Below, piece by piece: positions 5,137 to 32,369 of a DNA stretch of 34,324 bases. Under the pieces are notes generated by a model, which saw only the letters and a list, made by a program, of their open reading frames with translations, was not told where the DNA came from and did not search any database. The position numbers and the translations under genes were made by a program. Every line of letters begins with the position of its first letter. The stretch's first letter is position 1. The DNA lies in the NCBI GenBank assembly GCA_016842085.1, contig JAEVEX010000080.1, positions 1-34,324 on the forward strand. The letters are read 5' to 3'. Origin of the DNA: Candidatus Thermoflexus tengchongensis (GTDB lineage: Bacteria > Chloroflexota > Anaerolineae > Thermoflexales > Thermoflexaceae).

Positions 5137-6531
5137 TCACCCGGGGGCCGAAGGAGAGGTCTCCTGCCTCAGGGCCTGTCGGATCCGATCCTTCTCGGCC
5201 GGGCTGATCTTCCCCTCCATCACCAGCGCTTCCAGCAACTCCGTCAGCGTGATCATCGCATGGACCTGATAGCCCGCGGCCTCCAGCTCCTGCCGCCCGC
5301 CCTGCTCCCGATCCACCAGGACCACGATATCGGTGACCCGCAAGCCAGCCTCCTCCAGCGCCCGGATCGCCTCCTGCTTGCTGGCCCCTGTGGTCAGCAC
5401 GTCATCCAGGACCACCACGGTCTCCCCGGGCCGGAAGTCCCCCTCGATCTGCCGGGCGGTCCCATACGTCTTCACCTCCTTCCGGGGATACAGAAGAGGA
5501 CGTCCGGTCCGAAGAGCGACCGCGGTCCCGATGGGCAGCGCAGCGTAGGGAATGGCCGCCAGGCGATCGAACGTCAGGCGATCCAGCAGGGCCGCATACA
5601 TCCCCGCAACCCTCTCCAGCAGCGCAGGGAAGGCCACGAGCCGCCGCAAATCCAGATAGATCGGCGAGCGCTGACCTGACTTGAGGACGAACTCCCCGAA
5701 ACGGATGCAGCCGGTTTCATACAGCCACCGGGCCAGGGTGCGGGCGACAGCGGAAGGGGAAGACATCCCCTGCAGACGCTCAACGAGGGATCGGGCCGCT
5801 GCGCCCGGGTCCGACGCCTCCAGGATCTCCCGCGAGGCCGCGATCAGCGCCGGGGGGCCGGCGAGAATCCGCACCGTTTCCGGATCCCCCCCTTGAGGCC
5901 CCACCCCCGGGATCAGGAACCAGCGATCGGGGGCTAAGCGGCGCAGGGCGGCCAGGGCCCCCGGAGCCGTCGCCCCCACCACAAAGCCGATCCGCTCGCT
6001 CCCAGGCCAGCTCTGGACCTGACGGGCCAGGGCCTGATAGAAAGGCTCCCCGCGAACCGACAGCTCCTGCACCGCCTCCGCGCCGGGGTTCGAGGTCCGG
6101 ATCAGGAGGAAGATCCCCCGACCTTCCCGGCTCAGGAACGGGCGTAACGCCTCCGAACCCAGGAAGGGGTTCAGTGTCACCGCATCCGCCCGCACGAGGT
6201 CGAAGGCGAACTGCGCATACGCCTCAGCTGTCCATCCAATGTCTCCGAACTTCCCATCCAGGATCACCGGGATCTCCGGCGGGATCGCCGCCCGAACCGC
6301 CCGCAGGGTCTCCAGGCCGGAGGGGCCCAACGCCAGGTAGAAGGCCAGGTTGGGCTTATAAGCCGCGGCGACCTCCGCCGTGGCCTCGATCACCCAGCGC
6401 AGGAAGGCCAGGACCGGATCCGGATGCCAGCGCGCCCATTGCGGGAGGCGCGCCGGCGTCGGATCCAGCCCCACGCACAGGCCCAGCCGGGCCGGTCCGG
6501 TTCGCTCGTGCAATCGGGCGAAGAATGCCAT
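5137..6531 (-). CDS. pyrFE: Bifunctional orotidine-5'-phosphate decarboxylase / orotate phosphoribosyltransferase
   Basis: A 464-residue fusion carrying out the last two steps of UMP synthesis. Residues 1-255 are OMP decarboxylase of the longer bacterial type 2 (LCVGLDPTP, AAYKPNLAFY, then the catalytic ILDGKFGDIGWT with Lys and Asp). Residues 256-464 are orotate phosphoribosyltransferase (IRFGEFVLKSGQRSPIYLDLR, then the PRPP-binding motif VVVLDDVLTTGAS). The decarboxylase comes first and the transferase second, the reverse of the animal UMP synthase order. The frame is open to 6600, but ATG 6531 has GGAGG eight bases upstream and starts the conserved sequence, so the earlier start inside pyrB is rejected. 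Both halves keep their active-site residues, so both are probably functional. It lies 16 bases after pyrB. Confidence 0.94.
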   Translation of the reverse strand: MAFFARLHERTGPARLGLCVGLDPTPARLPQWARWHPDPVLAFLRWVIEATAEVAAAYKPNLAFYLALGPSGLETLRAVRAAIPPEIPVILDGKFGDIGWTAEAYAQFAFDLVRADAVTLNPFLGSEALRPFLSREGRGIFLLIRTSNPGAEAVQELSVRGEPFYQALARQVQSWPGSERIGFVVGATAPGALAALRRLAPDRWFLIPGVGPQGGDPETVRILAGPPALIAASREILEASDPGAAARSLVERLQGMSSPSAVARTLARWLYETGCIRFGEFVLKSGQRSPIYLDLRRLVAFPALLERVAGMYAALLDRLTFDRLAAIPYAALPIGTAVALRTGRPLLYPRKEVKTYGTARQIEGDFRPGETVVVLDDVLTTGASKQEAIRALEEAGLRVTDIVVLVDREQGGRQELEAAGYQVHAMITLTELLEALVMEGKISPAEKDRIRQALRQETSPSAPG

Positions 6532-6547
6532 GGCCCTATCCTCCGGC

Positions 6548-7543
6548 TCAGGCCTTGCCCAGCACGGCGGCCAGCAGGGCCATCCGGATGTAGAGCCCAT
6601 TGGCCACCTGGCGGAAGTAAGCCGCCCGCGGATCCCGATCCACCGCCGGGTCGATCTCCCCCACCCGGGGGAGCGGATGCATCACGATCATCCGTTCCTT
6701 GGCCCGCTTCATCAACTCCGGCGTGATCACATAGTAGTTCTTCACCTGCTCATAGGCGTTGAGGTCGGTGAAGCGCTCCTTCTGCACCCGGGTCACATAG
6801 AGCACATCCACATCCTCGATCACATCGGCCACATCGTAGGTCTCATACACCGGGATCCCCTTCGCCCGGACTTCGTTCATCAGGTCCAGCGGCAGCCGTA
6901 GGATCTCCGGCGACACGAAGGACAGCCGCACGTCATACATGGTGAGCAGCTTGGTCAGGGAATGCACCGTGCGCCCGAAGCGGAGATCCCCCACCATGGC
7001 GATGTGCAGGCCGTCGATGCGGCCCAGCTCCTCCTGGATGGTGAAGAGATCCAGCAGGGCCTGGGTGGGATGCTCCCCGATGCCGTCGCCGGCGTTGATC
7101 ACCGGGACCTCGGCCACATCGGCGGCGATCTTCGCCGCGCCCACCTCCGGATGGCGCAGGACGATCACATCGGAATACTGTTCCAGGGTCTTGATGGTGT
7201 CGGGGAGGGATTCCCCTTTCGCCACAGAGGAGAACTGAACGCCCTGGGTGATGGGGATGACGGCCCCGCCCAGGCGCTCCATCGCCGCGATGAAGGAGGA
7301 GCTGGTGCGTGTGCTGGGCTCGTAGAAGACACAGGCCATCACATAACCTTTGAGGAGATCACAGGCGCCCACGCGGCGGACCAGCTCCCGCATCTCCTCG
7401 GCGATATCGAAGAGGTAGGCCAGGTTCTCCCGGTTGAACTGGGAGACCGAAAGGATATCCTGCATGTAAAAGCCGTTGTTCGGGTTCACCGGCTCTCGCG
7501 AAGCGGCGCCATCAAACTGGAACAGACGCGGTCGGGTCACCAT
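6548..7543 (-). CDS. pyrB: Aspartate carbamoyltransferase catalytic chain
   Basis: A 331-residue enzyme that joins carbamoyl phosphate and aspartate. It has the carbamoyl-phosphate motif STRTS at residues 77-81 within [11 protein letters not shown], the [14 protein letters not shown] signature of the aspartate domain, and the HPLPRVGEI loop near the C-terminus. An extension of about 25 residues precedes the usual family start. ATG 7543 has a strong GGAGGAGGTG site. No regulatory chain gene (pyrI) is present in the run. The 69-base gap after pyrC holds a small hairpin (7581-7596, arms GCGGCGA/TCGCCGC, no T-run), which is unlikely to be a terminator. Confidence 0.96.
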
Positions 7544-10135: not shown

Positions 10136-10146
10136 CGCTTTTCGAA

Positions 10147-10262
<116 letters not shown>

Positions 10263-10280
10263 GACGGCTTCGATCTCCTC

Positions 10281-11785: not shown

Positions 11786-12283
11786 TCACAGGGGCTTGAA
11801 GGCCTCAAAGGGCTGCTGGCATGTGTTGCAGTAGAACAGCGCCCGACAGGAAGTCGGGCCGAACAGGTTCTCCATCCGGGTATCGGTGGATCCACAGAAG
11901 GGGCATGGCAACTTCTCGAACGCGGCCAGCGTGATCTCCGCCGGGACGGGCCGGGGCGGCGCGATCCCCAGCTCGCGCAGCGCCTGCCGGGCGCGTTCGT
12001 TCATCCGATCTGCCGTCCACGGGGGCCGATATACCCGCCGCACCTGAACGCGGCGCGCCCCCAGGGCCTGGATCCGCTCGACGATCTCTCGTTCCATCAC
12101 GTGCAGGGCCGGGCATCCCACGAAGGTGGGGGCGAAATCCACCTCCACCTCGTCCCCTTTCACCCGGACCTCGTAGATCAGCCCCAGGTCAACCACCGAG
12201 ACCGTAGGGATCTCCGGGTCTTTCACCGCCTCCAGAGCGGTCAGGACTGCCTCACGGGTCAGCGCCGCGCCGTCGCTCACCAT
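11786..12283 (-). CDS. paaD: Phenylacetyl-CoA epoxidase assembly protein PaaD
   Basis: 165 residues. The N-terminal MIP18/DUF59 domain shows VKDPEIPTVSVVDLGLIYEV and FAPTFVGCPALHVM. The C-terminal zinc-ribbon has CPFC, a central Cys in GPTSC, and CNTC before FEAFKPL. PaaD is thought to help mature metal centres of the phenylacetyl-CoA epoxidase. ATG 12283 lies inside the end of paaC (7-base overlap), indicating translational coupling. The longer open frame to 12754 runs across paaC and is rejected. It is the last gene of the paa run; no paaE reductase follows. Confidence 0.93.
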   Translation of the reverse strand: MVSDGAALTREAVLTALEAVKDPEIPTVSVVDLGLIYEVRVKGDEVEVDFAPTFVGCPALHVMEREIVERIQALGARRVQVRRVYRPPWTADRMNERARQALRELGIAPPRPVPAEITLAAFEKLPCPFCGSTDTRMENLFGPTSCRALFYCNTCQQPFEAFKPL

Positions 12284-13071
12284 GTTTCCCCCAACCCCGA
12301 GCGGGCCACCATCTGGAAGTCCGCGAGCAGCGCATCCAGGTGCTCGGTATGCCGCCCGTGCCGTCCGCCGTAAACCGGCTCCGCCTCCGGGATCCTCAGG
12401 GAAGCTGCTTCCAGGATCGGGCGGACCTCCGCCTCCCAGCGGGCCCGGAGCTCGGCCTCCGGCGGCTGGATCCCGGCTTCCACCCGCAGGATTTCGCCGG
12501 GTGCCGGCTCGAAGAGCCCCAGGGCATGTGGCCACGCCTGCTCCAGAGCCGCCTGCATCCGGCGGTGGCTCTCCTCCGTCGCATCCCCCAGCCGCAGCAC
12601 CCAGGCCCGGCTGTGCATCAGATGATACGTCTCCTCCCGCCGCACCTTGGCCGCCGCCTCCGCCAGCGGCGTCCAGGCGCTGGCCATCAGGGCCTCCAGC
12701 CGGACCTTTTCCGCGAAATCGAAAAGGAACTGGCGGACGATGGTGAAGGCCCAATCCCCCTTAGGCAGCTCCACCAGCGTCGCGTTGCGGAACTCCGGGG
12801 GATCCCGGAAGTAGGCCATGCGGTCGGGATCCGGCCACCCCAGCTCCTGCAGCAGCGAATACCAGAGGACCGCATGCCCGATCTCGTCCTGCGCGATGCT
12901 GGCCATGGCGATATCCGCCTCCAGGATCGGCGCGTGGCCTACCCACTCGGAATCCCGGTGGCCCAGCAGGACCTCATCATCGGCCATCGCCAGAAGCAGC
13001 TGGCCCACCGCCTCCCGGAGGGGATCCGGGAGCGCAACGGTCTCATTCGGCTTCGGGGAGGGACTGGCCAT
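12277..13071 (-). CDS. paaC: Phenylacetyl-CoA 1,2-epoxidase subunit PaaC
   Basis: A 264-residue ferritin-like structural subunit that pairs with PaaA in the epoxidase complex. It shows LGHRDSEWVGHAPILEADIAMASIAQDEIGHA, a decayed di-iron-like helix pattern, plus REETYHLMHSRAWV and a C-terminal GRHGRHTEHL-ALLADFQMVAR typical of PaaC. Length matches the family. Its ATG at 13071 lies 29 bases inside the end of paaB, and its end overlaps paaD, so the four genes form a tight translationally coupled block. It is cytoplasmic, with no signal sequence. Confidence 0.95.
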   Translation of the reverse strand: MASPSPKPNETVALPDPLREAVGQLLLAMADDEVLLGHRDSEWVGHAPILEADIAMASIAQDEIGHAVLWYSLLQELGWPDPDRMAYFRDPPEFRNATLVELPKGDWAFTIVRQFLFDFAEKVRLEALMASAWTPLAEAAAKVRREETYHLMHSRAWVLRLGDATEESHRRMQAALEQAWPHALGLFEPAPGEILRVEAGIQPPEAELRARWEAEVRPILEAASLRIPEAEPVYGGRHGRHTEHLDALLADFQMVARSGLGETW

Positions 13072-13366
13072 GGCGCTCCATCCACCTCCGCACGCGCTCG
13101 GTCACCCGGAAACCCCGGGGCTCCCGATATTCCTTCTCCAGGGCGGAGGCGAAAAGCTCCTCCGCCTCCTCGGCCCGCGAGGCGTAGATCGCCTCCGCGG
13201 GAACCACCCACAGGCTGATGCAGCGGCCCCGCCGGACGAACTGCTCCTTGGCCAGAAGAAGGGCCATCTCGGGGTCAGGGGCGTGGACCGCGCCCACATG
13301 CACATGGGGATCACCCCGTTTCTCCTGGAGGAAGACCTCATAAACCGGCCACTGCGTATCGCCCAT
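13043..13366 (-). CDS. paaB: Phenylacetyl-CoA 1,2-epoxidase subunit PaaB
   Basis: A 107-residue small subunit that bridges the PaaA-PaaC heterodimers. It shows [41 protein letters not shown] and [10 protein letters not shown], the core of the family. ATG 13366 has GGAGG five bases upstream. The open frame extends to 13480 but only inside paaA. It overlaps the end of paaA by 29 bases and the start of paaC by 29 bases. Confidence 0.95.
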
Positions 13367-14369
13367 TGCCCCCTCCGTTCGTCCGCTGCGCGGCCTTCGC
13401 CGCCAGGGCCTCCCGCACCCAGCGGCCCTCCTCATGGGCCCGGCGCCGGGCCGCCATTCGCTCCGCGTTGCACGGGCCATCGCCCCGGATCACCCGCCAG
13501 AACTCCTCCCAATCCGGCTCGCTGAACTGCCAGTGCCCGGTCTCCGGGTTGTAGCGCAGGTTCGGATCGGGGATCGTCAGACCCAGGCGCAGCACCATCG
13601 GCGCGTATTGATCCACGAACTCCTGGCGCAGCTCATCGTTGGTCTTCGTCTTGATCCGCCAGCGCAACAGGGTGGGCGTGTGCACCGAATCCCGGTCCGG
13701 CGGGCCGAAGAGCATCAGGGCCGGATACCACCAGCGGTTCACCGCCTCCTGCATCATCTGCCGCTGGGCAGGGGTGCCGGTGGCCAGGGCCACAAAGGCA
13801 TCGTAGCCCTGCTTGATATGGAAGGACTCCTCATAGCAGATCCGTTTCATCGCCCGGGCGTAGGGGCCGTAGGAGCCCTGGGCCAGCATCAGCTGGTTGA
13901 CCACCGCCGCGCCATCGATCAGCAGACCGATGGCCGCTACGTCCGCCCAGGTTGGCGTGGGGTAATTGAACACCACCGAGTATTTCGCCTTCCCGGCCAG
14001 CAGGGCCTCGATCATCTCCTCCCGGGTGATCCCGAGGGTCTCCGCCGCCCGATACAGCAGCTGGCCGTGGCCACCCTCGTCCTGCACCTTGGCGATGAGG
14101 ATCAGCTTGCGCCGGAGGGTGGGCGCATGGGGGATCCACTTCCCCTCGGGGAGCATGCCCACGATCTCGCTGTGGGCGTGCTGGGAGATCATACGGATCA
14201 GCTGCCGCCGGTATTCCTCCGGCATCCAGTCCGTGGGCTCGATCTTCTCCCCCCGGGCGATCCGCGCCTCAAACTCCGCCAGGCGGGCCTCATACTCCGG
14301 GCCCTCCTGGGGCGGCGGCGCCTGCTCCGGAACCGGAACCGCCTGACCGTGAATGCGATACATGAGCAT
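13338..14369 (-). CDS. paaA: Phenylacetyl-CoA 1,2-epoxidase catalytic subunit PaaA
   Basis: A 343-residue di-iron oxygenase that epoxidises the ring of phenylacetyl-CoA, the first committed step of aerobic phenylacetate breakdown. Iron-ligand helices are visible in [20 protein letters not shown] and [19 protein letters not shown]. The C-terminal third carries the conserved [23 protein letters not shown] 14369 has GGAGG six bases upstream and starts the conserved region; an upstream ATG at 14453 lacks a site and overlaps the tetR stop. The gene begins 80 bases after the TetR gene on the same strand, so both are probably transcribed from the promoter at 15083-15111. Confidence 0.96.
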
Positions 14370-14449
14370 CGTGCCCCTCCTTTCCCAGCAGAACCTGGGC
14401 GGCTGGACCTGGATCGGGAAAGCGGGATATCTCTCCCTTTCCAGCAACA

Positions 14450-15058
14450 TCATCCGGATGTTTCCGGAGGCTCACACCTTCGCAGCCCTCGCATCACCCA
14501 GTCGGTGAAGGCTTCCGCGATCTGCTCCGGCGAGAGAGGGCCCTTCGGGCGATACCAGACGGCGACGCCGTTCAGCGCCGTCAGGATGAACCGGGTGATC
14601 AATGGCACATTCAGGTCCGCCCGGAACACCCCTGCCTCGATCCCTTCCTGCAGGATCTCCCGAAACAACGCCTCATAAGCATCCCGACGGGCCAGGATGT
14701 CCGCGCGGCGCCGAGGGCTGAGGGCTTTCCATTCGTGATTGAACACCACCGCCGCATCCTGGCGCTCCGTCACCACCCACAGGTGCGCGGCCACCGCGAG
14801 CCGGAGCTTCTCCACCGGGGAACGCCCGGAGCGGACGATGGGCTCCAGGCTGGATAGAAACGCCTGGGCGGCTTCATCCACAATCTCCCAGAGCAGCTCC
14901 TCCTTCGAGGCGATGTGGGCATACAGGCTCCCTCCTTGCAGGCGGATCGCCGCCGCGATGTCCCGGATGGAGGTGCCGTAATAGCCCCGCTGGCTGAAAA
15001 GCCGCCCGGCTACCCGCAGGATGGTTTTCCGTCGATCCCCATGAGTTCGTCGCGCCAT
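14450..15058 (-). CDS. paaR: TetR-family repressor, probable PaaR-type regulator of the paa genes
   Basis: A 202-residue regulator. The N-terminal TetR helix-turn-helix domain (residues 1-50: [47 protein letters not shown]) is typical. The C-terminal ligand domain resembles acyl-CoA-responsive members of the family. It lies directly upstream of paaABCD on the same strand. Just before its ATG is a perfect match to the operator I recall for Thermus thermophilus PaaR, which releases DNA on binding phenylacetyl-CoA. It would thus repress itself and the paa operon until substrate appears. The ATG lacks a clear Shine-Dalgarno site; with the predicted transcript start the leader is only about 18 bases. 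The PaaR name is inferred from context and operator. Confidence 0.85.
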
Positions 15059-29141: not shown

Positions 29142-29778
29142 CGCTCTCCCCCTCCCACGGACAGGTTCGGAAAGGCGGCACAAGCCACCCTCCTGAAAAG
29201 GGCAGATGGAGCATGGTGCGCTGTCCGGTTATGGGTTGAGGAAACCGGAGATCGACGGGATCTCCGGGATCTACCTCGGATCCTTCCACCGGGGCGGAGT
29301 CCCATCGGCCAGGGAGCAACCATCCGGGGCGCAACTCACCCAGGGCGCGGCGGCGGGTGCTGTGTTCCCCGGGCATTGACTTCAGACAGCGATCCCTCGG
29401 AGGCCATCCATGGATCCTACAGGGGCCCTATAAGAACTGCGTAAGCGGAGCCCGCTATTTCATGGTGTGAAGGGGAACACTTGCTGAGATATAATTTTTT
29501 AATGCCAGTTTTCCACCTCTGTCCAAGGCCGAATCGCGCGAAGTTCGCCATCCTTCAGGCACCGTGAGGCGGACGGCGAACCCACCCCATAGACCCAGCC
29601 CGCAGCCGGCCAGGGGGGATCCGCCGTGCGGCTGTGGGCGGCGCCAGGTGTCTCCCCCAGCCCCCGAATCCCCCTGGAGGGGACCAGCTGCGTAATTCCT
29701 GGGGATGTCGTGGGGGTTCCGTGCGCAGGAGAAAGCTGCGTTATCATGAACAGGCATCTTGATCCGGAGGAAGGGAGC
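29142..29778. other. 637-base intergenic region with structured stretches
   Basis: No gene found between the divergent MFS and secG genes. It holds several strong stems: CCGGAGATC/GATCTCCGG (29245-29267), an 11-base stem GCCCGCAGCCG/CGGCTGTGGGC (29598-29639), and CCCCT/AGGGG (29671-29682). The only AT-rich part is near 29487-29502 with TATAAT on the plus strand, but no -35 box fits. No riboswitch consensus (T-box, SAM, cobalamin) was recognised. Confidence 0.5.
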
Positions 29779-30015
29779 GTGATCACCGCCCTGAATATCG
29801 CTCAGATCTTGCTGGCGATCGCATTGATCGCCATCATTCTGCTTCAGGCTGGATCTTCCCAGCTGGGAGGGGTTTTTGGATTGGGCGATGTGGGGGTGCC
29901 CCGTAAGCGCCGGGGGCTGGAACGCACCGTCTTCAATCTCACGATCTTCCTGGCCGTTCTCTTTCTGGCCCTGGCGGTGGTCAATGTGATCGTGACCGGG
30001 ACCCCTGCGGGCTAA
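29779..30015 (+). CDS. secG: Preprotein translocase subunit SecG
   Basis: 78 residues with two membrane helices (NIAQILLAIALIAIILLQA and FNLTIFLAVLFLALAVVNVIV) separated by the conserved loop SSQLGGVFGLGDVGVPRKRRGLER. SecG assists SecYE in protein export. I chose GTG 29779: GGAGG lies eight bases before it, and the resulting length is typical of the family. An upstream ATG at 29746 would add an unusual hydrophilic extension and has a poorly placed site. The gene heads a run with the solute-binding protein and the thioredoxin-like protein, all plus strand. Confidence 0.93.
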   Translation: MITALNIAQILLAIALIAIILLQAGSSQLGGVFGLGDVGVPRKRRGLERTVFNLTIFLAVLFLALAVVNVIVTGTPAG

Positions 30016-30149: not shown

Positions 30150-31826
30150 ATGGCTTCACGTCCCCGATATCCTACTCTGGCCCGTGGGCTATATCTTCCA
30201 CTGGTTCTTGTTTTGTTTATGGCGCTCAGCCTGGGCGTGCTGATGGCCTCCCTGGCCCTCCGGGCCGGCGTGGAAACGGTCCCGGCGCGGGGAGGGCATT
30301 ATGTGGAGGCGATCGTGGGCCCGATCACCACCCTGAACCCGCTTCAAATTCAACCCGGAGATTCGGAAGCCGACATCGCCCGCCTCATCTTCAACAGCCT
30401 GGTGCGGCTGGATGCGCAGGGGTTGCCGGAAGGGGATCTGGCCCAGCGCTGGGAGGTCTCGGAGGACGGGCTGCGATATACCTTCTACCTGCGTCCAAAC
30501 GTCCGCTGGCACGATGGGGCCCCGCTGACGGCTGATGATGTCCTGTTCACCGTGCGCCTGTTGCAATCGCCGGAGCTCCCCGGGCCCCCGGAGCGCGCAC
30601 GCCTCTGGCAATCCATCGAAGTGGTTCCGGTGAACAGCCTGACCGTGCAGTTCCGGCTGCCGGAGCCGCTGGCGCTTTTCCCGGATCTCCTGACGTTTGG
30701 GATCCTGCCCGCTCACATCCTGCGCGATGTGCCGCCCGCCCAGATCCCCACGCATCCCTTCAACCTGAATCCCATCGGCACCGGCCCCTATCGGGTGGCC
30801 TCCGTGCATGTGGAAGAAGGTCGGATCCAGCGAGTGGTCCTTTCCGCCAACTCCTCCTACTTCCGCGGCCCACCCCTGCTGGAGCAGGTGGAGTTCCGGA
30901 TCTTCCCGGATACCCGCACCGCCCTCCTGGCCTATCGTGCGGGGGAAGTTCAGGGCATCGCCCGCATTGCCCCTTCGGATCTGGATCAGATCCGCGCGCT
31001 GCCCTCGCTGAATCTGTTCTCGGCGCTCCTCTCGAGCTACCAGGCGATCCTGTTGAATCATGCGTCCCCCTTGTTCCGGGAGCGGGAGGTGCGAGAGGCC
31101 CTCTGGCTGGCCCTGGATCGCCAGCGCCTGATCGATCAGTTCCTGGCTGGCCAGGGAGTGGTGGCCAGCAGCCCCATCCCCCCCGGCCACTGGGCCTTCC
31201 ATCCCCGGCTTCCGCCGGTCCCCTACGATCCGGAAAAAGCGCGGGCTCTGCTGGAAGCGCGGGGCTGGGTGATCCCGGAAGGGGGAACCGTGCGGCAGAA
31301 GGGGGATCTGACGCTGCGCTTCCGTCTCGCCGCAAGCGCGGACGGCTTTCATGACCTCATCGCTCAGGAGATCGCCCGACAGTGGCGGGCGATCGGGATC
31401 GCGGTCGATGTGGATCCCATCCCGGGGGATCTGGTGGAACAGATCCTTGTCCCTCATCGCTTTGATGCCGCACTGGTCGAGCTGATGATCCCGGGAGATC
31501 CCGACCCCTATCCTTTCTGGCATGAAACCCAGGTGGATGCCGGGCAGAACTACGGCGGGTTTCGGGATCGCGACATCAGCGAGGTGATCGAGGAAGCCCG
31601 TCGAACATCGGACATTGTCCGTCGCCGGGAGCTTTACTGGCGCTTCCAGGAGCTGTTTCAGGAGAAGGTTCCCGCCCTCCTGCTCTTCTATCCGGTTTAC
31701 ACCTTTGCCGTGGATGAGCGGATCTCCGGGATCCAGGTGGGGGCGCTGCTCAACTCGCCGGCGGATCGTTTCGAGGGGATCACCGGGTGGTATACGCTGG
31801 TCCGCCGTCGGATCATCGTGCGATAG
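30150..31826 (+). CDS. ABC transporter substrate-binding protein, family 5 (peptide/nickel type)
   Basis: A 558-residue extracytoplasmic protein. One N-terminal membrane helix (residues about 14-37) anchors it; no lipobox cysteine is seen. The binding domain is the SBP_bac_5 kind: LNPLQIQPGDSEADIARLIFNSLVRLD, LAQRWEVSEDGLRYTFYLRPNVRWHDGAPLTADDV, and NPIGTGPYRV are its signature segments. REVREALWLALDRQRLIDQFL and a late PDPYPFWH follow. Peptides are the usual cargo, but nickel, sugars and others occur. No permease or ATPase gene is adjacent, so its transporter partner is elsewhere or it has another role. ATG 30150 has only a weak AAGAGA site. Confidence 0.9.
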   Translation: MASRPRYPTLARGLYLPLVLVLFMALSLGVLMASLALRAGVETVPARGGHYVEAIVGPITTLNPLQIQPGDSEADIARLIFNSLVRLDAQGLPEGDLAQRWEVSEDGLRYTFYLRPNVRWHDGAPLTADDVLFTVRLLQSPELPGPPERARLWQSIEVVPVNSLTVQFRLPEPLALFPDLLTFGILPAHILRDVPPAQIPTHPFNLNPIGTGPYRVASVHVEEGRIQRVVLSANSSYFRGPPLLEQVEFRIFPDTRTALLAYRAGEVQGIARIAPSDLDQIRALPSLNLFSALLSSYQAILLNHASPLFREREVREALWLALDRQRLIDQFLAGQGVVASSPIPPGHWAFHPRLPPVPYDPEKARALLEARGWVIPEGGTVRQKGDLTLRFRLAASADGFHDLIAQEIARQWRAIGIAVDVDPIPGDLVEQILVPHRFDAALVELMIPGDPDPYPFWHETQVDAGQNYGGFRDRDISEVIEEARRTSDIVRRRELYWRFQELFQEKVPALLLFYPVYTFAVDERISGIQVGALLNSPADRFEGITGWYTLVRRRIIVR

Positions 31827-31874
31827 CGCAGCTGGCTTTCCTCCGGAACGGAACGATGGGAGGTAGAGGCCCCT

Positions 31875-32369
31875 ATGGAGTTCCTGAATCGCCATTCGTT
31901 TCTGATATTTGGCGGTCTGGTGCTGCTGGGGCTGGGCGCCTTTTTATGGCTGCGACGAGCCGGATGGATCGGATGGGGGCTCTGGGCCCTTATCCTGATG
32001 GGCCTGGTGGTTTTCTGGCTCTCCATGCGGACGAGCCCGACCCAGCCTTTCGCCTCGCAGGCGGAGATTGAGGCGGCCCTTCGATCCGGGAGGCCCGTGC
32101 TGGTCTACTGGTTCTCCAATTACTGACTGGGCTGTCTCTCTCTTCATCCTGCCGTGCGCAGGATCGAGCGGGAATGGCGTCAGGGGCGTGTGCTCTATGT
32201 GGAGGCCCTCAGCCCGGCCGGGCGATCCTTTGGAAAGACCTATGGGTTGCGCCTTACACCATCCTTTGCGTTATTCGATGGGCAGGGTCGTCTGATCCGC
32301 ACCTGGACCGGAACTGCAGGGGCTCCGACGCGGGCCGAGCTGGAGAAGAGCCTTCGAGGAGAGCCCTGA
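31875..32369 (+). CDS. Membrane-anchored thioredoxin-like selenoprotein with a U-x-x-C site (TGA read as Sec)
   Basis: One reading frame runs from ATG 31875 (GAGG five bases before) to TGA 32367-32369, broken only by TGA at 32124-32126. Reading that TGA as selenocysteine gives 164 residues. Two membrane segments lie at about 9-26 and 31-51, then a thioredoxin-fold domain: VLVYWFSNY, Sec84-L-G-C87, the helix HPAVRRIEREW, and the cis-proline loop LTPSFALFDGQGRLIRTW (Pro129). The TGA stands exactly at the first cysteine of the expected CxxC. A SECIS-like hairpin follows at 32142-32168. Both halves keep coherent thioredoxin sequence on either side of the TGA. It would be a membrane-bound thiol oxidoreductase facing one side of the membrane. 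The alternative is a nonsense mutation or sequencing error. It follows the solute-binding protein by 48 bases. Confidence 0.82.
32142..32168 (+). promoter_or_regulatory. Bacterial SECIS-like hairpin
   Basis: ATCCTGC (32146-32152) and GCAGGAT (32158-32164) form a perfect seven-base stem with loop CGTGC. A lower part CTT/GAG extends it across one C-C mismatch. The loop begins 26 bases after the TGA and has G at its second position, which agrees with the bacterial SECIS rules I know (loop 16-37 bases downstream, G in the first two loop bases). It would recruit SelB for insertion of selenocysteine. Confidence 0.75.

Follow-up and report, generated by a model that had tools for sequence, protein, structure and literature searches.

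A Putative Membrane-Anchored Selenocysteine Thioredoxin Encoded in Thermoflexus and Other Chloroflexota

Gene Organization at the Locus

The DNA analyzed here, referred to as the window, is a stretch of 34,324 nucleotides from the hot-spring bacterium Candidatus Thermoflexus tengchongensis. Near its end, the forward strand carries a reading frame at 31875–32369 (+), which encodes 164 amino acids followed by a final TGA stop codon when one internal TGA is read as a residue. This sole internal TGA is codon 84, located at 32124–32126 in the context SNY-U-LGC, where U denotes selenocysteine (Sec); the first-pass annotation had described a single in-frame TGA in this frame, and both its coordinates and its description were right. 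A Shine-Dalgarno-like GGGAGG is read directly in the sequence at about 31858–31863 (+), 11 nt before the ATG.

Immediately upstream, separated by a gap of 48 nt, lies a gene for a family-5 extracellular solute-binding protein (30150–31826, +; PF00496, E = 4.2e-78), which is preceded by a SecG-containing ORF (29626–30015, +; PF03840, E = 1.2e-10). The three genes had been proposed to form one run. Their same-strand adjacency holds, whereas the functional link is weaker, as the synteny is seen only in Thermoflexus: the solute-binding protein gene is upstream in six of the seven other Thermoflexus loci and is not a neighbor in any other relative. This neighborhood was therefore dropped as a functional clue, being genus-specific.

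Three further features were observed elsewhere in the window. A TPP riboswitch at 10143–10273 (+) overlaps the start of an NCS1-type permease ORF (PF02133, 10223–11674), which is probably a thiamine-related transporter. A single ORF at 5137–6600 (−) seems to fuse two pyrimidine steps, as its orotidine-5'-phosphate decarboxylase domain precedes a phosphoribosyltransferase domain. Phenylacetate catabolic genes are present at 12277–14453 (−), where two PaaA/PaaC-family proteins are encoded with a further ORF between them.

Conservation of the In-Frame TGA

Standard ORF calling divides the gene into an 83-amino-acid ORF (31875–32126) and a GTG-started fragment of 71 amino acids (32154–32369), the latter without a proper start, as had been predicted. 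This is exactly the split that would be expected if the TGA were an ordinary stop codon, leaving an 83-residue membrane stub and a remainder that is a pseudogene or else a small ORF of its own. The comparison with related genomes makes such an explanation very improbable. The gene is found in eight of nine Thermoflexus genomes, and the TGA occurs at the same codon in all eight; the ninth genome, in which the gene was not found, is a draft of 76% completeness. The seven other Thermoflexus copies share 63–95% protein identity with the window protein. Its relatives include proteins of Candidatus Thermoflexus japonica (95%), Ca. Thermoflexus sinensis (86%) and a Chloroflexota MAG (86%). Among the Thermoflexus orthologues, the pairwise differences in the region 3' of the TGA amount to 363, 310 and 860 at codon positions 1, 2 and 3, respectively, which indicates that the frame continues to be translated after the TGA.

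When the 298 genomes of the class were searched with a profile, 93 gave a match. The TGA lies exactly at the active-site column in 73 of the 298 genomes, counted where this column was aligned, and 16 relatives of the class have Cys (TGC or TGT) at the Sec column and read straight through it. The alignment of homologues proposed for position 84 thus returned Sec or Cys, and no homologue was seen to stop at the position of the TGA. The second Cys is retained in all TGA members of the class, so that all are of the UxxC type; the TGA is the first position of the redox motif (U84-L-G-C87), as the first-pass annotation had placed it, and shares its column with the Cys codon of the relatives. TGA members also occur in other classes of Chloroflexota (22 TGA rows and 4 Cys rows). 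The fixed TGA column with coding constraint on both flanks, in the 73 class members and in the 22 TGA rows of other classes, the uninterrupted Cys relatives, and the sel genes and covarying SECIS hairpin described below all stand against an ordinary stop codon. On these sequence comparisons, a chance origin of the in-frame TGA is excluded.

No relative was present in the plasmid records searched. A scan of all genome contigs with the window protein as a single query, which reaches close relatives only, returned Thermoflexus alone. In the phylogenetic tree, the family groups as a single clade, separate from the canonical thioredoxins of WCGPC type that these genomes also encode (support 100). 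The Sec and Cys states on the family tree require nine changes, at least six of which are forced by strong branches, although the tree by itself is no proof of the direction of change; the Thermoflexus branch that includes the window protein is all Sec.

In other classes of Chloroflexota, UxxS members were also observed (L166, L172 and L173), where Ser replaces the resolving Cys but Sec is retained, as are four or more of the six hairpin pairs. At four loci (L167, L170, L171 and L174), a UxxS copy adjoins a UxxC copy in tandem.

SECIS Hairpin Downstream of the TGA

A hairpin with the sequence AUCCUGC-CGUGC-GCAGGAU is located at 32146–32164 (+), just after the TGA. Its covarying core stem pairs 32148–32152 with 32158–32162 (+), enclosing the loop at 32153–32157. 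When the T of the TGA is numbered 0, bases 24–29 of the family hairpin pair with bases 33–38, and the loop starts with GU. The hairpin alone has an MFE of −9.3 kcal/mol (z = −3.15). Plain folding of a 50-nt segment that starts shortly before the TGA (32121–32170) gives an unremarkable result (z = −0.5); the signal emerges only when covariation is considered and when the hairpin is taken by itself. The published bacterial SECIS model (PMC13188914) has an apical loop of 3–9 nt, a stem of 4–16 bp, a G among the first two nucleotides of the loop, 16–37 nt between the UGA and the loop, and an MFE of −7.5 kcal/mol or lower. The window hairpin agrees with every one of these constraints, having a loop of 5 nt (CGUGC, with G second and then U), a stem of 7 bp, and 26 nt between the UGA and the loop.

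The pairing is maintained throughout the family. At least five of the six stem pairs are formed in all 73 distinct TGA sequences, in which compensatory changes are evident: pair 26–36 is CG in 37, TA in 27 and GC in 8, and pair 27–35 is GC in 44, AT in 25 and CG in 2. The number of fully paired stems is 42, compared with 17.9 ± 2.5 (maximum 25 in 2000) in a codon-preserving null, which exchanges codons between sequences that share the amino acid at a position and leaves phylogenetic relatedness in place. When one sequence was taken from each of 28 families, 94% of the pairs were formed, in agreement with this result despite the caveat of relatedness. The mean stem pairing within the class is 93% in the TGA members compared to 48% in the Cys relatives, and the rows of other classes, which were held out from the discovery of the hairpin, give 89% for 22 TGA rows and 46% for 4 Cys rows. 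Across eight Thermoflexus species, the five hairpin codons for P-A-V-R-R (CCT GCC GTG CGC AGG) show zero synonymous change. The selD hairpin of the source genome has the same CGUGC loop. A search at the Rfam gathering threshold gave no RNA family at the hairpin site; its only match was the TPP riboswitch elsewhere in the window. Taken as a whole, the folding energy, the covariation, the codon-preserving null and the fit to the published model strongly support the assignment of this hairpin as a bacterial SECIS element.

Selenocysteine Machinery and Decoding of the UGA

The first-pass annotation had regarded the gene as a probable selenoprotein gene and held that a genome devoid of sel genes would refute this. 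All four genes are present in the source genome: selA (SelA, E = 1.7e-137), selB (327.7 bits, with the C-terminal part included), selC (tRNA-Sec, 80.8 bits, with the anticodon TCA determined by ARAGORN), and selD, a gene that has a Sec codon of its own, an in-frame TGA in the motif ASCAGUASK. Together with the Cys and Sec homologues at position 84, this bears out the earlier assignment. Within the class, SelA is found in 249 of 298 genomes; a SelA match occurs in 68 of the 73 genomes that have Sec members, compared with 9 of the 15 whose members are all Cys (Fisher p = 0.0026). The five genomes with Sec members and without a SelA match are all drafts of 73–92% completeness.

The UGA might instead be read as Cys or Trp through a variant code or a suppressor tRNA, with no involvement of selenium, and the Cys found at this position in the non-TGA relatives is what such a reading would lead one to expect. 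The same gene, however, ends in TGA, and the genome has a complete selABCD set with a tRNA-Sec carrying the TCA anticodon. Moreover, the hairpin is kept in the TGA members and decayed in the Cys members, which is explained by SelB-dependent decoding and not by a variant code or suppressor. We consider decoding as Cys or Trp hardly credible. The orthologues, the class relatives and the coding signal that flanks the TGA on either side are best explained as a whole if 31875–32369 is a selenoprotein gene, and the locus almost certainly encodes a membrane-anchored Sec-thioredoxin.

Predicted Structure and Membrane Topology

An AlphaFold2 model built on a 44-row family alignment has a mean pLDDT of 90.6 and consists of two helices followed by a thioredoxin fold. 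The predicted transmembrane helix 1 comprises residues 8–26 (31896–31952, +), where the relatives also have a hydrophobic stretch, and helix 2 comprises residues 31–51 (31965–32027, +), likewise hydrophobic. The thioredoxin-fold domain extends over about residues 56–160 (32040–32354, +). Aligned with thioredoxins by VIA-align, the model reached Z values as high as 15.1 across about 100 residues (residues 57–160 of the model), and the top Foldseek matches are thioredoxins. Residue 84 is situated at the start of the helix formed by residues 85–100, in the thioredoxin topology, and P129 (codon 32259–32261, +) occupies the cis-proline position in a TP motif and is invariant in the 44-row alignment. 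An active site at the start of the fold's helix 2 together with a cis-Pro loop is characteristic of the thioredoxin fold. The model and these structural matches agree with the membrane tether and thioredoxin fold that had been proposed from the sequence.

Two forms of the family were distinguished, a two-helix form, which includes the branch of the window protein, and a one-helix form. In the one-helix members, the number of K and R residues is 2.2 before the helix and 0.9 after it. In the two-helix members, it is 2.48 in the inter-helix loop, 2.08 after helix 2, and 0.44 in the N-termini. Because of this moderate positive-inside charge bias, a location of the thioredoxin domain outside the cytoplasmic membrane, as in extracytoplasmic thioredoxins of the TlpA/ResA-like kind, is favored, though not decisively, and is moderately likely.

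A selenoprotein whose thioredoxin domain faces the cytoplasm, where it would act as a membrane-bound partner of TrxA and TrxB and not on exported proteins, is less probable, though it deserves serious consideration. In 18 relatives, trxA directly precedes the family gene on the same strand (L053, L063, L064, L068, L073, L076, L082, L085, L090, L092, L099, L100, L102, L106, L108, L113, L114, and the Cys member L089), and in 10, trxB is no more than 4 kb away; a position next to a cytosolic-type TrxA would fit a cytoplasmic domain equally well, and the charge after helix 2 is not clearly below that of the inter-helix loop. On the other side, the positive residues of the one-helix members are concentrated before the single helix and those of the two-helix members in the short loop between the helices, compared with the near-neutral N-termini of the latter, and the source genome contains CcdA-type carriers, with two membrane genes of the CcdA/DsbD type (DsbD_TM). 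A CsoR-like regulator is also encoded nearby in 12 relatives. The earlier proposal that the protein reduces or isomerizes disulfides of exported proteins is accordingly one of the weaker parts of that annotation, as it hinges on an extracytoplasmic domain, for which the charge bias is moderate.

Relation to Known Selenoproteins

A Sec-containing thioredoxin (Trx, PF00085, UxxC) is already known (PMC13188914, PMC1794560). The present family is similar to it in the thioredoxin fold, in the replacement of the first Cys of CxxC by Sec, and in the bacterial SECIS after the UGA. It differs in having one or two N-terminal membrane helices, in lacking both the Trp before the active site and the GP inside it (SNYULGC compared to WCGPC), and in forming a clade, spread over the classes of Chloroflexota, that is distinct from the canonical Trx proteins of these genomes. 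With the thiol:disulfide interchange selenoproteins (PF13098, UxxC) and the TlpA/DsbD-like ones (cd02966; TsoB, NF045694), it has in common a membrane- or export-linked thioredoxin-like domain with UxxC. The family shows weak matches to the thioredoxin regions of DsbD and TsoB, with scores far below the cut-offs (at most 21.2 of 805 bits for TsoB), and, unlike those proteins, it has neither the DsbD membrane domain nor a rhodanese. The Cys-containing membrane thioredoxins of the family in the Anaerolineae have the same fold, helices and SN/SP motif and differ in having Cys for Sec, a decayed hairpin, and a genome from which SelA is more often missing.

Against the Pfam gathering scores, the window protein reaches 21.7 of 23.5 for PF00085 and 23.6 of 27 for PF13098, and all ten relatives scanned are above the PF00085 cut-off. 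The equivalog model of canonical TrxA (TIGR01068) gives 16.2 bits against a cut-off of 96.8, and WCGPC is absent from the window protein. Neither the window protein nor any of its 7 orthologues and of 10 relatives reaches the cut-off of a named selenoprotein model of NCBIfam (SaoT, HUIPC-type, TsoB and others). In a 2026 inventory, no named family matches a membrane-anchored Sec-thioredoxin, and Chloroflexi are not mentioned. The freely accessible literature searched on Sec in Thermoflexus, Anaerolinea(e) and Chloroflexi/Chloroflexota and on membrane thioredoxins gave no account of the family or of its distribution in the phylum, and an earlier report in subscription literature is possible. 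The membrane-anchored Sec-thioredoxin is a variant nearest to Sec-thioredoxin, for which we found no description.

Proposed Mechanism and Biological Role

The comparative sequence evidence shows that the UGA at codon 84 is recoded by the SelA/B/C/D system of the cell with the aid of the SECIS hairpin within the gene. The product is thus a protein of 164 residues in which two membrane helices at the N-terminus precede a thioredoxin domain, the active site of which is Sec-Leu-Gly-Cys. As the fold suggests, the selenolate of Sec84 would attack a substrate disulfide, or a sulfenic acid or similar group, forming a mixed selenenylsulfide that Cys87 would then resolve, and the resulting Se-S bond would be re-reduced by an upstream donor. 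It is moderately likely that the domain is located outside and receives its electrons through a carrier of the CcdA/DsbD type and, likewise, that the family protein works with the neighboring TrxA and TrxB in many relatives.

The use of Sec in the phylum Chloroflexota has been remarked on as odd, and Anaerolinea thermophila has a Sec elongation factor and no annotated Sec formate dehydrogenase (PMC4959059). A Sec formate dehydrogenase was considered as the reason for Sec retention in Thermoflexus and was rejected, since no in-frame TGA was found in the formate-dehydrogenase-like genes of the Thermoflexus genomes.

As a tentative and rather speculative extension, this phylum-wide family of membrane Sec-thioredoxins might be a main reason for the retention of the Sec system in Chloroflexota, with the active site outside and the reducing power of TrxA/TrxB or CcdA passed to extracytoplasmic thiols; in some other classes, the tandem UxxC and UxxS pairs may form a selenol relay. 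As gene callers cut this gene in two, its annotation is probably wrong in many genomes of the Chloroflexota. Thermoflexus keeps selABCD with no visible Sec formate dehydrogenase, and the conserved membrane Sec-thioredoxin predicted here would be a concrete user of this machinery, with a testable redox role.
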